Below are positions 30,917 to 41,229 of a DNA stretch of 42,355 nucleotides, piece after piece. This DNA comes from a virus: IMG/VR virus record IMGVR_UViG_3300032053_018310, positions 1 to 42,355 of that record; one strand, given 5' to 3'. Numbering within the stretch: position 1 is the first letter of the stretch; every line of letters begins with the position of its first letter. The position numbers were made by a program, and so were the translations under genes. The notes under the pieces were generated by a model. It was given only the letters and a program-made list of their open reading frames with translations, made no database searches and was not told the origin of the DNA.

Positions 30917-32602
30917 TTAAACTACATTTCCAAGTAATAAATCACGCAAATTATCAGTTGCATCTTTACGAACATTAATTACGGCAGTATCTGTAGTCAG
31001 CCATATTCCTACAACAGCAGCCGCATCTAATACTGAATATTTTACTACTTCATATGGATCGATAATATTTGTATCTAACATATCGACTATACTAGAAGTA
31101 TTAGCGTCAAAGCCAAATATTGACATATTCTTATTATTTGATTGATTAATTTTATCTAAATATTCTGTAACATCTTCTAAACCTGTAGCATTGCTAATAA
31201 TTTTAGATATAGGGGCTCTTAAAGCGTTAATAAACACTAATATTCCGGCATTAAATCCATATGTATTGTCATCAAGTATTAATCTTTGCATAAAATTAGC
31301 AATTTTAAATAATATTGACCCTCCTCCAGCTACATAACCATAAGTAATAGCAGATTTAGTAGCATGCACAGCATCATCAACACGGTCTAACTTTTCAGAT
31401 AAATCGGTATCGGTCTGACCACATACTTTAATCATAGCTACTTGACCTAATAATTGGGCTTTACGTGCTAGATAATAAGTTCTTTGATACGCGGTTAATG
31501 TCCCTGAATCGATGTCAGTAGTAATGCTATCTACACGGTTTTGAATCATTATAGGGTCACCTTTCCCGCTTAAAATAGTAGTATGAGTACGTTCTACTAT
31601 TACTTTTTCAGCAGTTCCTAAAAATTCACGAACAATATCATCTCTAAATCTACCATCGGAAGTTTTATGATATTTAGCACCTGTATAAATACATATATCT
31701 TCTAATATTTGTGCTTTTTCTTCTCCTATAGAAGGGCTTTTAATACCGCATATTTTAACTGAGCCACGAGCATTATTTTCTACCATAGTTCTAACAGAAT
31801 CGCCGGTAAAATCATTAGCAATTATAAGTATAGGCTCTCCTTTGCTTGCACATTGCTCTACAATAGAATGAATCGGAGCAAAATTAGTGATGTCCATAGG
31901 TAATACTAAAATTTTACAGTCATTAGCCTCCCATCTATTATTACTATTTCCTAAAATAAATTGATTATGAATATAACCGCTTTCCACTCTAAATCCTTCA
32001 ATAAGATCTAAATGCATAGTTTTAGTTTTTTCTGAAGTTTGAATTTCTTTATCTACTACTATAACGCCGTTTTTACCTACCTTTTTAAAGGTATCACGTA
32101 AAGTAGAGGCTATATCTTCATCATAATTAGAAGAAATAGTAGCGATTTTATAAGCCATTTTTCCATCATTATTATCAGGTATAATATTTACATAACTTTC
32201 AAGGAGTGTAATAAAATTAGTCTTTGCATAATCTAATCCTTTTTTAAGTTCAACGGTATTTATACCTTGTTGAATATAATCATAACCTTCATTACACATA
32301 GCAGCAGCTAAAATAGTGCTAGAAGTAGTACCGTCTCCAATAAAATTAGCAGTTTTTTCAGTAACGGTTTTTACTAATTGTGCGCCTAAATTTTCTAATT
32401 CATCTTTAAAATAAATGCTTTTAGCAACGGTAACGCCATCTTTGGTTATTTGATGAAGTCCTTCTGTTCCTTTTTCAATGATTACATTTTTACCTTGTGA
32501 GCCGAGTGTTGAGCCCACAGCTTTTGCAAATTTATTAATACCTGCAAGCATTGGTTTTCGTGCTTCATCTCCGTGATAAATATTTACTGTTTTAATACTC
32601 AT
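30917..32602 (-). CDS. groEL: Phage-type GroEL/Hsp60 chaperonin
   Basis: The 561-residue protein aligns along the length of GroEL. The nucleotide pocket has GDGTTS at 89-94 (D90 corresponding to GroEL D87), and DRVDDAVHATKSA (D410 corresponding to the catalytic D398) runs into YGYVAGGGSI. IIDPYEVVKYSVLDAAAVVG is the C-terminal equatorial part. The apical segment SGYIHNQFI replaces the usual GYLSPYFI. The C-terminal GGM tail is absent; the protein ends LLLGNVV. No groES gene is seen in the window. Phage chaperonins of this type (such as that of phage EL) fold virion proteins without GroES; that is precedent, not proof here. AGGAGACAAA precedes the ATG. Confidence 0.93.
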   Translation of the reverse strand: MSIKTVNIYHGDEARKPMLAGINKFAKAVGSTLGSQGKNVIIEKGTEGLHQITKDGVTVAKSIYFKDELENLGAQLVKTVTEKTANFIGDGTTSSTILAAAMCNEGYDYIQQGINTVELKKGLDYAKTNFITLLESYVNIIPDNNDGKMAYKIATISSNYDEDIASTLRDTFKKVGKNGVIVVDKEIQTSEKTKTMHLDLIEGFRVESGYIHNQFILGNSNNRWEANDCKILVLPMDITNFAPIHSIVEQCASKGEPILIIANDFTGDSVRTMVENNARGSVKICGIKSPSIGEEKAQILEDICIYTGAKYHKTSDGRFRDDIVREFLGTAEKVIVERTHTTILSGKGDPIMIQNRVDSITTDIDSGTLTAYQRTYYLARKAQLLGQVAMIKVCGQTDTDLSEKLDRVDDAVHATKSAITYGYVAGGGSILFKIANFMQRLILDDNTYGFNAGILVFINALRAPISKIISNATGLEDVTEYLDKINQSNNKNMSIFGFDANTSSIVDMLDTNIIDPYEVVKYSVLDAAAVVGIWLTTDTAVINVRKDATDNLRDLLLGNVV

Positions 32603-36865: not shown

Positions 36866-37480
36866 ATGACTAATAAAAGTAAACTTAAGTTAGAAGGTAA
36901 TATAATTGGTTATATGTGTGAATCATCATTAGATGGATGGAATTATTGTATATATAATAAAAATATAAATACTATATTTATTGATACATATGAAGCACCC
37001 GGAGATTTTGTATTAAAATTAAATTCAGATGATAGTATGACGTATGCAGCTTTAACTTATGACACAAAAGAAGAATGTCTAGCCGATAGAGATAAATTGT
37101 TGGATTGGTTAAGAGGTGATAATAATGAAACTAATAACCTTAACAAGCCTGTATTAGAAGCAGAAGAAAAACTTAAAAAATTATTAGAAGAACCATTAAG
37201 TGAAGACGCTTTATATAATGTAGCAGATTATTTACTGGGATGGAAAAAGAATTCTGAGTTGTCAGTAAGAATTTTAAATTGTTTTTTAAATAAAGATGGA
37301 GACTATCCTCAGCCTAATAACTTCCGTGAGGTACTTATGATGACAGACGCTGAATTATTAAGATGGCCTAATTTTGGTAGAAAATCTTTAAATGAGTTTA
37401 AACAATGGTTAGATGATATAAATTTAAAAACAGGAATGACACAAGAACAAATAGAAAAATTCTTAATTAAGAGAAGCTAA
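36866..37480 (+). CDS. Protein with RNA polymerase alpha-CTD-like domain
   Basis: The 204-residue protein has an N-terminal beta-rich region (about 1-85) and a linker helix. Residues about 130-191 match the C-terminal domain of the RNA polymerase alpha subunit: ELSVRILNCF (compare ELTVRSANCL in E. coli), TDAELLRWPNFGRKSLNE (compare TEVELLKTPNLGKKSLTE), ending NLKTGM. The DNA-contact positions equal to R265, N268, G296, K298, S299 and E302 are all kept (R135, N138, G171, K173, S174, E177). It is not an alpha subunit, since the assembly domain is absent. It could bind UP elements or activators, redirecting host polymerase. Confidence 0.75.
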   Translation: MTNKSKLKLEGNIIGYMCESSLDGWNYCIYNKNINTIFIDTYEAPGDFVLKLNSDDSMTYAALTYDTKEECLADRDKLLDWLRGDNNETNNLNKPVLEAEEKLKKLLEEPLSEDALYNVADYLLGWKKNSELSVRILNCFLNKDGDYPQPNNFREVLMMTDAELLRWPNFGRKSLNEFKQWLDDINLKTGMTQEQIEKFLIKRS

Positions 37481-38047: not shown

Positions 38048-38217
38048 TAAGTCACTCCTAATATTTTTTTAAGTCTTGGATTCTTATGCAATGCTTTTAT
38101 TCCAACTTTCCTTGCTGTTGCGGCCAAGATTGATCCTGCTTGTTCTCGTGACATTCCTTGTTTTTTAGCTATTTTTTCTTGAACTGTTTTAAATCCAGGA
38201 TTATTTTTTGTAACCAT
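38047..38217 (-). CDS. Small basic phage protein with RKAG-type motif
   Basis: This 56-residue product has a helical core (EKIAKKQGMSREQAGSILAA) and a basic tail (RKAGIKALHKNPRLKKI). Small proteins with a similar pattern occur in phages and are of unknown role. ATG is at 38217; the preceding plus-strand gap (38218-38319) holds only AT-rich sequence with the likely start of the rightward kinase genes. It heads the minus-strand pair ending at 37793. Confidence 0.6.
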   Translation of the reverse strand: MVTKNNPGFKTVQEKIAKKQGMSREQAGSILAATARKVGIKALHKNPRLKKILGVT

Positions 38218-38319
38218 TGACTAACTTCTTTTTTTATATATATATTATATAGTAATGTAACATAATAGTAAACAGGGACTTTATTAAAAAAAGAACAAAT
38301 TAGAAGAGAAAAAGTAGAT

Positions 38320-39492
38320 ATGCTTAAAAATATAAATAAATTTTTGAATGAAAAAAAATATGTACGATATTCTGAGTATGCACTTTTGCCCGCAATAGAA
38401 TATAGTGAAAAATTATTTCCTAGAGATCATCTTAAAAACGCCTATTTAATAGCATGCCACCATATCTTGCCTTCAGCACATATGATGATTCGTTCAATGA
38501 TAAATCTTGGTTTAGATGAGAATAATATTGCGTTGATAGGTAAATGTTATTCTAGCGATGAAAAGACTATGGAGAACATGATTAAAGAGGGGATATTTGT
38601 TTGTAAATCAAGTATAGAATTTGATTCTGATAAGTCATTTGATCAACAATTCAAAGAATCGGTTACCAGCCTCTTAAAAAATCAAATTCAAAGAATGCAA
38701 CCCCCTAAGGATGCAAAAATTATCATATTAGATGATGGTGGGGCATTAATTACTGCGGCTCAGTATTTAGCTGAGGATTATATTAATATTTGTGGGGTTG
38801 AATTTACATCTTCAGGATATCGCAGATTGGCTGCTATGTCATTAAAATTTCCAGTTATTGATGTGGCTCAGTCTAGGTCAAAATTACAATTTGAATCTCC
38901 TTTAATTGCAAAAGCTATAGCGGATAATCTTAAAGCAAAGCTTAACATTTCATCTATACCTCCTAAAGATATTTTAGTAGTTGGTTCAGGTGCAATCGGA
39001 AAGGCTGTTCAACTAATGCTAAAAAATGATTGTTCTCAGCATAAAATAAAAGGTTATGATTCTATTAAAGAGCTTAGTGAACTTGATCATTCTAATTTTA
39101 GTGAATTTGATATAATTATTGGTGCGACCGGTAATCAAGCAATGAATCATAATTACTATGACTCTTTAAGGGAAGAAGCTATTTTGGTAAGTGTGTCATC
39201 GTCTGATCGAGAATTTGATGGAGTGAAATTTAGACAATTATCAGGTAAAAAATGGAATACGCACGATGATGTTTATTATAATGGTTTATGCCTATTAAAT
39301 TGTGGCTTTCCAGTTAATTTTAGTGGTGGTAGCAGAGTTAGCGTGCCATTAAAGCAGTACCAATATTTTATGGCAATGTTGTTCGTTGGTGTTTGTGAGG
39401 CGGTGTTTTACAATAAAGATGATGGTCAAATAATTAAACTTAACAATAATTTTATGAGCGGAAATTTAAATAAAGTTAAAATGGTTGGATAA
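38320..39492 (+). CDS. S-adenosylhomocysteine hydrolase-like NAD-binding protein
   Basis: The 390-residue protein follows the SAHH plan. It has ACHHILPSAHMM (compare GCLHMTVQT), IILDDGGALI (compare MILDDGGDLT) and VEFTSSGYRRL (compare EETTTGVHRL). QSRSKLQFES keeps the lysine equivalent to K186, with E in place of D190. An NAD-binding GSGAIGK segment is present. The position of H301 is changed (SSSDREFDG) and the C-terminal Lys/Tyr tail of true SAHH is missing; the protein is also shorter. Classic SAH hydrolysis is therefore doubtful. It precedes a hybrid histidine kinase by three bases, suggesting a joint role in making, breaking or sensing a SAM-derived molecule. Confidence 0.75.
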   Translation: MLKNINKFLNEKKYVRYSEYALLPAIEYSEKLFPRDHLKNAYLIACHHILPSAHMMIRSMINLGLDENNIALIGKCYSSDEKTMENMIKEGIFVCKSSIEFDSDKSFDQQFKESVTSLLKNQIQRMQPPKDAKIIILDDGGALITAAQYLAEDYINICGVEFTSSGYRRLAAMSLKFPVIDVAQSRSKLQFESPLIAKAIADNLKAKLNISSIPPKDILVVGSGAIGKAVQLMLKNDCSQHKIKGYDSIKELSELDHSNFSEFDIIIGATGNQAMNHNYYDSLREEAILVSVSSSDREFDGVKFRQLSGKKWNTHDDVYYNGLCLLNCGFPVNFSGGSRVSVPLKQYQYFMAMLFVGVCEAVFYNKDDGQIIKLNNNFMSGNLNKVKMVG

Positions 39493-39495
39493 AGT

Positions 39496-41229
39496 ATGTT
39501 TAACAAAAAAATTACTCATTTCTTTGGCGAGATGTATGGGAGTATGTTAAAAGATACTAAAGATTTTGAGTCTTTATTTATTAAATTTGGTTATTCAATA
39601 ATTTTCTTTTATTTGTTCTTTTATATTTTTAATATAAATATAAATCATATCAATAATGAAAATTTAATTTTAAGAGGTGTAGCTGTTACAGTTGGTTTGG
39701 GATTGGTACTCAAGAATTTCTGGCCAGAATCAGCAAAACGATTTTTACCGATATATTGGTATTTTACTCTGACTTATTGTTTTCCATTTTTCTTTTCTTT
39801 CATGCTTTTTCAAAACCCAGAGTCAAATATATGGCAAATAAATGGATTGGTTGGAATAGTATCGTTAACGTTTTTTGTGGAGTGGTTTACTTATATTATT
39901 CTTTTGGTTATTGGAGTATCGCTAGCTTACTCAGCTTTCTACTTTACTAACGCCAACATAATTTTATCAAGTGATTTAATAGTTGTGTTTGGTAGTTATA
40001 CTGCTCCGCTATATTATTTACTAATAAGCTCTCACAAAAAAAAGAAAATATATGATAATGATCTCTTTCTAGAACAACAATTAATTAACATTGCTTTAAC
40101 AAAAAAGTCAGAAGATTTAGAAAAAGCTTTAAGTATAAAAACAGACTTTCTAAATAATATAAGTCATGAAATACGTACACCAATTAATGGGTTAGTAAAT
40201 TTATCAAGCTTATTGGCTGAGAATTGGAAAAAGTATTCTGACTCTGAGCATTATAAAATTATAAAAACCATTGCTGAATCAAGTAATCGTTTAATAAAAA
40301 TAATAAACAATGTTTTGGATATTTCAAAATTTACATCGGGGAAAATGAGTATGACAATGATAGAAGGTAATTTAGAACAGTTATTAAGAGCAATGATTAT
40401 AGAGCTTGAATCTATTTATCTCATTCAATATAAAGACATTGTTATTGAGACCAATATACAGATTGGAATAGACAGTGCTGTAAAGATGGATCCAGATAGG
40501 ATTAATCAAGTTTTACGTAATTTAATTGATAATGCTTTTAAATTTACTAAAGCAGGAAAAATTAAAATCTCTTTGAGAACTCAAAGTAAGAATCTAGAAG
40601 TTGTTATAGAAGATGAAGGGATTGGAATAGCAAAAGAAGAGTTGGAAGAAATATTTAATCCTTTTGTACAAAGTAATAAAACCAAAGATTTTGCAACTGG
40701 TACAGGGTTGGGCTTATCTATTTGCAAGGAGATTGTTGCTGCTCATAATGGAAAAATATGGGCAGAAAATAAAATTATAGGGTCATCTTTTCATTTTATT
40801 TTGCCTAGATTAGAGCTTCTAAAACTTGATCAAGAAGTAGGCTCTGATTCAATAAAGGGCACTGCTTTAATGATTGATGACGATGAACTTTCTCATACTG
40901 TAATGAGAATGATTTTAAACAATGATGGATATGAAATGATTAGTTTTTATAATGGAGTAGACGGATTAGAATATCTTAGCCAAAATGTAAATAAAATTGA
41001 TTTTATATTTTTAGATTTAATGATGCCTGGTATGCATGGTTTAGATGTCTTAAGAAAAATAAAATCGGATGAGTCTCTTGTTGCTATTCCGGTAATTATT
41101 CAAAGTGGTAGTAATCCTTTTGATGAAACTAATTATTCTCAAGCTATGAAACTTGGAGCTACAGGGTTTTTTAGAAAACCCTATAGTCATAAAGAGATAA
41201 GTGAATTTGTAAATAAAATCCTTCTATAA
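39496..41229 (+). CDS. CqsS-like hybrid histidine kinase
   Basis: The 577-residue membrane kinase has six likely membrane segments in the first 180 residues (approximately 34-46, 57-73, 84-105, 114-128, 131-150 and 158-176) and no large periplasmic domain. Next come the H-box NISHEIRTP (H224), N-box NLIDNAFKF (N346), G1 DEGIGI and G2 GTGLGLS, then a receiver with acidic pocket DDD (461-463), phosphoacceptor D507 and the lysine in RKPYS. This is the layout of CqsS/LqsS quorum-sensing kinases. All catalytic boxes are intact. It lies in tandem with the SAHH-like gene; no response regulator or phosphotransferase gene is adjacent, so output would use host partners. Confidence 0.85.
   Translation: MFNKKITHFFGEMYGSMLKDTKDFESLFIKFGYSIIFFYLFFYIFNININHINNENLILRGVAVTVGLGLVLKNFWPESAKRFLPIYWYFTLTYCFPFFFSFMLFQNPESNIWQINGLVGIVSLTFFVEWFTYIILLVIGVSLAYSAFYFTNANIILSSDLIVVFGSYTAPLYYLLISSHKKKKIYDNDLFLEQQLINIALTKKSEDLEKALSIKTDFLNNISHEIRTPINGLVNLSSLLAENWKKYSDSEHYKIIKTIAESSNRLIKIINNVLDISKFTSGKMSMTMIEGNLEQLLRAMIIELESIYLIQYKDIVIETNIQIGIDSAVKMDPDRINQVLRNLIDNAFKFTKAGKIKISLRTQSKNLEVVIEDEGIGIAKEELEEIFNPFVQSNKTKDFATGTGLGLSICKEIVAAHNGKIWAENKIIGSSFHFILPRLELLKLDQEVGSDSIKGTALMIDDDELSHTVMRMILNNDGYEMISFYNGVDGLEYLSQNVNKIDFIFLDLMMPGMHGLDVLRKIKSDESLVAIPVIIQSGSNPFDETNYSQAMKLGATGFFRKPYSHKEISEFVNKILL

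Follow-up and report, generated by a model that had tools for sequence, protein, structure and literature searches.

A candidate signalling cassette of an S-adenosylhomocysteine hydrolase-like enzyme and a CqsS-type kinase in a phage and in bacteria

What might a phage do with an enzyme resembling S-adenosylhomocysteine hydrolase (SAHH) whose gene lies immediately before that of a quorum-sensing type kinase? The question is raised by IMG/VR virus record IMGVR_UViG_3300032053_018310, analysed here over its full 42,355 bases (the window), in which a terminase, an integrase and other phage genes are present. An earlier note had placed an SAHH-like enzyme (SAHHL) and a CqsS-like hybrid histidine kinase at 38320..41229 and three bases apart, and the open reading frames (ORFs) bear out both coordinates and spacing (a gap of 3 bp between the SAHHL stop codon and the start of the kinase ORF, both on the + strand). 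Judging from sequence comparison, we consider it probable that the two genes form a synthase-receptor cassette like CqsA/CqsS or LqsA/LqsS, in which an SAHH-fold enzyme with a nicotinamide adenine dinucleotide (NAD) motif would fill the synthase slot; SAHHL would most likely make the ligand of the receptor and, less likely, alter it. The features are the following.

38320..39492, + strand: SAHHL, SAHH-fold enzyme with NAD glycine motif, proposed signal synthase (ORF of 390 aa, fold model, residues, ratio of nonsynonymous to synonymous substitution rates (dN/dS))
39496..41229, + strand: CqsS/LqsS-type hybrid histidine kinase, proposed receptor (ORF of 577 aa, Pfam domains, motifs, sensor homology, dN/dS)
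39496..40092, + strand: membrane sensor domain of the kinase, aa 1-199
40138..40341, + strand: HisKA domain of the kinase (motif SHEIRTP at aa 223)
40489..40809, + strand: HATPase_c domain of the kinase
40867..41211, + strand: receiver (REC) domain of the kinase (a lone REC gene stands at the corresponding site in three sister phages)

The enzyme and the kinase

SAHHL matched the adenosylhomocysteinase profile TIGR00936 at E 3.7e-10 (39.2 bits, the curated cut-off of 497.6 not being reached) and Pfam AdoHcyase_NAD at 22 bits (cut-off 27), and its best PDB sequence match had E 7e-7. An AlphaFold model, for which the window protein and six relatives served as input (mean predicted local distance difference test score 79.7, predicted template-modelling score 0.81), gave, for residues 15-390, matches to SAHH structures (Foldseek E 2e-15; VIA-align Z 29.7, root-mean-square deviation 3.8, 346 residues aligned), and the predicted SAHH fold spans the whole chain. 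When SAHHL was compared with four canonical SAHHs from the same bacterial order (positions labelled by human SAHH numbering), the NAD glycine motif was retained, as were the residues of His55, Asp131 and Lys186 type; Asp190 was replaced by Glu, Asn191 by Ser and His301 by Ser, and the Glu156 position was occupied by Phe in the window protein and by Gln in most relatives. SAHHL thus shares with AhcY (S-adenosylhomocysteine hydrolase) the predicted whole fold, the glycine motif and several active-site residues, but it has only about 18% identity, stays far under the family cut-off, falls in a separate clade, is altered at the His301-, Asn191- and Glu156-type positions of the catalytic residue set and misses the C-terminal tail. 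The description as an SAHH-like protein with altered catalytic positions therefore stands on profile scores, fold model and residue comparison, and a canonical SAHH is ruled out by score, residues and tree. A decayed enzyme is unlikely as well: 49 columns are invariant in seven sequences of the family (three of these close copies), and dN/dS was 0.18 against a second phage and 0.19 against a bacterial copy (G001), with an overall range of 0.16-0.19. Because family conservation is strong and dN/dS is low, our reading is that SAHHL would be a working enzyme acting on another substrate, not a dead SAHH.

The HisKA, HATPase_c and REC domains of the window kinase all exceed their Pfam cut-offs, and their motifs are intact. 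Six hydrophobic peaks were seen in its first 200 residues by a crude hydropathy scan (the Vibrio protein gave five), and its sensor aligned with a Vibrio CqsS (28% identity over 92 aa, E 6e-11, in a single direct comparison) and with a Tistrella protein (37% over 98 residues, E 9e-17). A search of 72,556 plasmid records with the sensor only returned four, three from Vibrio and one from Tistrella. The kinase has the homologous N-terminal membrane sensor of CqsS/LqsS-type kinases, and the description of its sensor as CqsS-like is supported. At the one Vibrio locus inspected (L007), a CqsA gene adjoins the kinase gene in convergent orientation; its product scores 608 bits (NCBI cut-off 428 for alpha-hydroxyketone autoinducer synthases) and matches synthase structures for cholera autoinducer-1 (CAI-1) at E 8e-167. 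The kinase of this locus is presumably CqsS, a name that we give from its CqsA neighbour, since NCBIfam names no CqsS model for it. Purifying selection is clear on the enzyme and weaker on the kinase: dN/dS of the latter was 0.27 against G001, but the comparison of aa 1-290 with the second phage gave 0.48, so that the sensor half is under weaker constraint. SAHHL had no match in 50,697 phage records or in PHROGs, and the sensor query had none in phage records.

Recurrence of the pair

A scan of viral contigs yielded a second virus record with the SAHHL and kinase pair (G005; 49,659 bases), the cassette of which looks complete because the two ends of the record share part of the kinase gene, one of them encoding aa 1-290 and the other aa 201-577. 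With the pair present in two different virus records, an assembly chimera is unlikely. Further scans of viral contigs, with A2 and with the sensor alignment, found the known contig only; built on two exact peptide patterns and on one, respectively, they have low sensitivity.

The scan of genome contigs gave four SAHHL relatives from four metagenome-assembled genomes (MAGs), namely a MAG titled Rickettsia typhi (G001; locus L008, 85% identity), a Patescibacteria MAG, a Verrucomicrobia-titled MAG with two copies and an alphaproteobacterial MAG (L011). From the order of the Rickettsia-titled MAG, 262 genomes were sampled out of a larger group (drafts, completeness unstated). Matches to SAHHL were found in 61 of them: four were strong (E at most 1e-119), 12 intermediate (E between 5e-36 and 8e-68) and 45 low, at what we take as the level of canonical SAHH, whereas the other 201 had neither an SAHHL nor a canonical SAHH match at E 1e-10. 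In three of the four genomes with strong matches (G011, G022 and G043) a CqsS-type kinase lies downstream of SAHHL on one contig, as the next gene in G022 and G043 and after a methyltransferase-like gene in G011. In the fourth, G001, SAHHL and the best-matching kinase stand at the ends of two contigs: the first ends 125 bases past the SAHHL gene in what is, by eye, the start of a group II intron (Rfam found nothing there), and the second starts with a group II intron end (RF00029, L133:38-144), from which we infer that G001 also has the pair, with an intron inserted between the enzyme and kinase genes. Upstream of the G001 SAHHL lies another hybrid kinase, which has no CqsS-type sensor. The earlier note would have been refuted if the two genes never co-occurred elsewhere; they do co-occur, in another phage, on a single contig in each of three bacterial genomes and, probably, across the intron in a fourth.

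Could the two genes be unrelated neighbours, carried together by chance? Only the general mobility of phage cargo speaks for this, and the pair recurs in genomes so diverged that both proteins have only about 40% identity; we therefore reject the explanation as extremely improbable. Across six pairs the identities of enzyme and sensor run parallel (Pearson 0.84, the pairs not being independent), and in the tree the paired SAHHLs group (support 98/90) together with one unpaired member, L011, the gene of which is truncated at its start by the contig end. SAHHL and the kinase are a true two-gene module that also occurs on bacterial chromosomes. The interpretation in the earlier note holds in part. 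No literature joining an SAHH-like protein with CqsS-type receptors, and no description of the module, was found among the matches listed (open-licence literature). Phages are not the only carriers of the module, and the phage copy has the look of a cassette captured from a bacterium.

The bacterial copies in G022 and G043 are extended by a third gene, a regulator of 329-330 aa that follows the kinase. The G022 regulator matches PDB 6sy9 over its full length (E 1.2e-55; next chain 2e-5); this entry, which is named 'Response regulator', is presumably Legionella LqsR. In Legionella, lqsR clusters with lqsA and lqsS (PMC5289986 and PMC3376566). By sequence, the gene set of G022 and G043 is lqs-like, with SAHHL in the place of LqsA. 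The phage pair differs in this respect, no LqsR-type regulator ORF adjoining it in the window.

Enzymes beside CqsS-type sensors

CqsS-type sensors were present in 43 of the 262 genomes; the four SAHHL genomes gave the four best sensor matches, largely by construction, as three of these sensors are rows of the search profile (A5). Neighbouring genes were mapped for 67 bacterial sensor ORFs, which lie in 63 fetched loci, and for the two phages. A recognisable small-molecule enzyme adjoins 22 of the 67 (gap at most 160 bases): CqsA (3), SAHHL (3, in one case with an intervening methyltransferase), class I methyltransferase (2), EgtD-like Methyltransf_33 (8, among them two pairs of near-copies, each pair within one genome), Haem_oxygenas_2 (3), and leucine carboxyl methyltransferase, beta-ketoacyl-ACP synthase III (KAS III) and thiolase (1 each). 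CqsA reached E < 1e-110 in only three of the 262 genomes (next match 9e-40), each time adjoining a CqsS-type sensor, and that of L139 passes the NCBI cut-off; in the four SAHHL genomes no match of CqsA level was found (best 5e-25 to 1e-33). On plasmids, an annotated KAS III was located 27 bases upstream of a matching hybrid kinase in Paraburkholderia, and such kinases stood without an annotated adjoining enzyme in Dyella and Rhodanobacter.

The Methyltransf_33 genes (L141, L152, L175, L176, L177, L181, L182 and L188) overlap the start of the CqsS-type kinase ORF by 14-22 bases in six of the eight cases, and this recurrent pair may be another signalling cassette. Haem_oxygenas_2 genes adjoin CqsS-type kinases in L138, L146 and L192 (divergent in L146). 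The class I methyltransferase of L061 has no detectable relation to those of L134 and L135.

In the sensor tree, clades largely track enzyme class (5 changes, the mean over shuffles being 13.2); the methyltransferase-paired sensors nest in the SAHHL-paired clade (87/77), and L188, one of the Methyltransf_33-paired sensors, is separate from the rest. Residue numbers for the ligand specificity of CqsS were taken from PMC3376566 (section 4.3) and placed on the fetched Vibrio protein by motif spacing. Trp104 is retained in all compared sensors. The Ser107 position is Ser in 4/4 CqsA-paired sensors and Asn in those paired with SAHHL (6/6), methyltransferase (2/2), Methyltransf_33 (8/8) and haem oxygenase (3/3). 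The Phe162 position is Phe in 4/4 CqsA-paired sensors, Tyr in 6/6 SAHHL- and 2/2 methyltransferase-paired sensors, Ile in 3/3 haem-oxygenase-paired sensors and mixed in the Methyltransf_33-paired ones; positions 160 and 166 showed no clean pattern by enzyme class.

The module therefore resembles the alpha-hydroxyketone quorum sensing of Vibrio (CqsA/CqsS) and Legionella (LqsA/LqsS/LqsR) in having a CqsS-homologous sensor kinase with an adjoining enzyme gene, and differs in its SAHH-fold enzyme, the enzyme there being a pyridoxal phosphate-dependent synthase, and in the Asn and Tyr of its sensors. If SAHHL is a signal synthase, it is to our knowledge unlike any known autoinducer synthase. A precedent by analogy for a maker other than CqsA beside a sensor kinase may be seen in Ralstonia, where the methyltransferase PhcB makes the signal and is encoded in one operon with the sensor kinase PhcS, an LqsR-family regulator (PhcR) being encoded nearby (PMC10653808). 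The likeness lies in an enzyme of another class joined with a sensor kinase in one operon; a methyltransferase adjoins the sensor there, whereas none adjoins the window pair.

As regards ligand production, ligand identity, signalling direction, output and phage host, we infer the following. SAHHL would convert a small metabolite, plausibly one related to S-adenosylhomocysteine (SAH) or a methyltransferase product, into the signal; the membrane sensor of the kinase would bind it and switch kinase/phosphatase activity; and phosphate from His would reach first the receiver within the kinase and then partners of host or phage origin. The opposite role, in which SAHHL would clear or modify the ligand so as to reset or quench the signal, draws on the facts that adjacency alone cannot separate making from breaking and that SAHH-type chemistry is reversible and, in cells, degradative. 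A maker, CqsA, sits in the same slot, however, another maker, PhcB, lies in the operon of its sensor kinase (PMC10653808), and the cluster offers no other candidate maker but the L061 methyltransferase, so that we judge this role quite improbable.

Several observations weigh against the cassette as proposed. The 67 sensor ORFs were picked by high score, are mostly not transporter-fused and are not a random sample, and 45 of them have no identified enzyme neighbour (they are transporter-fused or transporter-preceded, cut by a contig end, or flanked by other genes, only some of which were scanned). Since the sensors group by enzyme class, residue differences and tree amount to one line of evidence, not two. 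No output partner of the kinase was found in the window. The SAHHL family also occurs without the kinase: no such kinase was present in the fetched flanks of L011 and of the Patescibacteria MAG, and in the order that includes the Verrucomicrobia-titled MAG and Simkania, where 13 of 147 genomes have the family, a CqsS-type kinase was nearby in none of the 13 fetched loci (the sensor profile found nothing in the 147 genomes of G003's order, a set without a positive control). Finally, neither a canonical SAHH nor the TIGR01704 nucleosidase (0/4) was found in the four SAHHL genomes; the latter model matched in 10 of 14 control genomes, above its cut-off in seven. Plain disposal of SAH by SAHHL is possible because these four genomes have neither enzyme in our searches, and the absences are weak since G001 and others are draft genomes.

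These absences lead to the rival in which SAHHL is a metabolic hydrolase of SAH or a related nucleoside that relieves product inhibition of methylation, the kinase reading the same metabolite within the cell with no cell-to-cell signal. The SAHH fold and NAD motif suit it, as do the lack of a canonical SAHH and of a methylthioadenosine/SAH nucleosidase in the four bacteria and the methyltransferase-like gene, resembling those dependent on S-adenosylmethionine (SAM), between enzyme and kinase in one cluster. The altered His301-, Asn191- and Glu156-type residues and the missing tail tell against such a hydrolase; the order, moreover, often manages without either match, as in the 201 genomes above, and SAHHL is linked to a quorum-type receptor and, in two genomes, to an LqsR-like regulator. 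We regard the metabolic explanation as unlikely and retain the synthase-receptor cassette.

Among the SAHHLs of the Simkania order (L003, L065-L074; also on the Simkania plasmid pSn), genes for EamA-type transporters (8/13, Simkania counted once) and short-chain dehydrogenases (4/13) are often near. EamA-type SAM/SAH exchangers are known from chlamydiae, and a methyl-cycle link is possible for these SAHHLs.

The phage clade and other genes of the window

Nine virus records, the second phage included, have a terminase 86-100% identical to that of the window. When SAHHL was sought in ten records (the nine plus a remote one; several are fragments), only the second phage had it. Three sister phages that cover the site carry, beside a DUF669 gene and on the opposite strand, a lone receiver gene of 121-148 aa related to the REC domain of the window kinase.

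L207:11200-11568, inverted relative to the window kinase: lone REC gene
L209:11934-12380, inverted relative to the window kinase: lone REC gene
L222:7253-7618, inverted relative to the window kinase: lone REC gene

Compared with the receiver of the G001 partner kinase, the lone receivers of L207 and L209 show 67-69% identity; with the receiver of the window kinase they show 54-60%. The phages of the clade that cover the site thus carry the complete cassette or else a receiver alone, one that resembles the receiver of the bacterial kinase; this pattern points to bacteria like G001 as hosts and, without proving it, suggests that these phages act on the pathway. The terminase itself matches in 190 of the 262 genomes at E 1e-20 or better (many at 1e-40 to 1e-70), which probably reflects a background of gene-transfer agents; the best matches, G075 (44%) and G198 (42%), are suggestive only as a host clue.

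The phage would have acquired the cassette from a bacterium of the order that it probably infects and, when lysogenic, may join, override or listen to the signalling of that bacterium. A pair serving bacterial host physiology by lysogenic conversion, unrelated to phage timing, would agree with its presence on large bacterial contigs and with other cargo of the phage, e.g., a GroEL-like gene, but a related receiver persists at this site in the sister phages, suggesting a phage interest in the pathway, and we find this explanation very unlikely. That the pair times lysis, as the earlier note proposed, is a guess. Phage phiCDHM1 reportedly has quorum-sensing genes of the agr type. Quorum-sensing genes are described in this phage (PMC3901668) and LuxI/LuxR quorum sensing in Phaeobacter prophages (PMC13345283); here too a phage possibly holds both signal enzyme and receptor, but receptor family and enzyme differ from those of the window pair.

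A broader reading is quite possible, and we advance it tentatively: CqsS-type receptors may be a general chassis that the bacteria of this order combine with interchangeable signal makers (CqsA, SAHH-like, class I and EgtD-like methyltransferases, haem-oxygenase-like, KAS III and thiolase), SAHHL may be a new autoinducer synthase class, and the phage clade may contend over the signal, some phages holding the full cassette and the lone receiver of their sisters tapping or draining the host kinase. If true, a signal synthase of a new kind would be added, many CqsS-type receptors in the order may listen to new molecules whose makers could be read from the neighbouring gene, and a phage may have a share in how its bacterial host communicates chemically. 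The pair gives a concrete chemical hypothesis that is testable in Escherichia coli.

Further features of the window are a promoter-like site upstream of the SAHHL gene (weak, as 33 such sites occur in the region against 25.4 +/- 5.3 in shuffles) and the products of genes elsewhere in the phage; the gene adjoining the GroEL-like gene has a weak C-terminal helix-turn-helix match, below cut-off.

38217..38246, + strand: promoter-like site
30917-32602, - strand: GroEL-like chaperonin (Cpn60) encoded by the phage
36866-37480: protein with an RNA polymerase alpha C-terminal-like domain; it may modulate transcription

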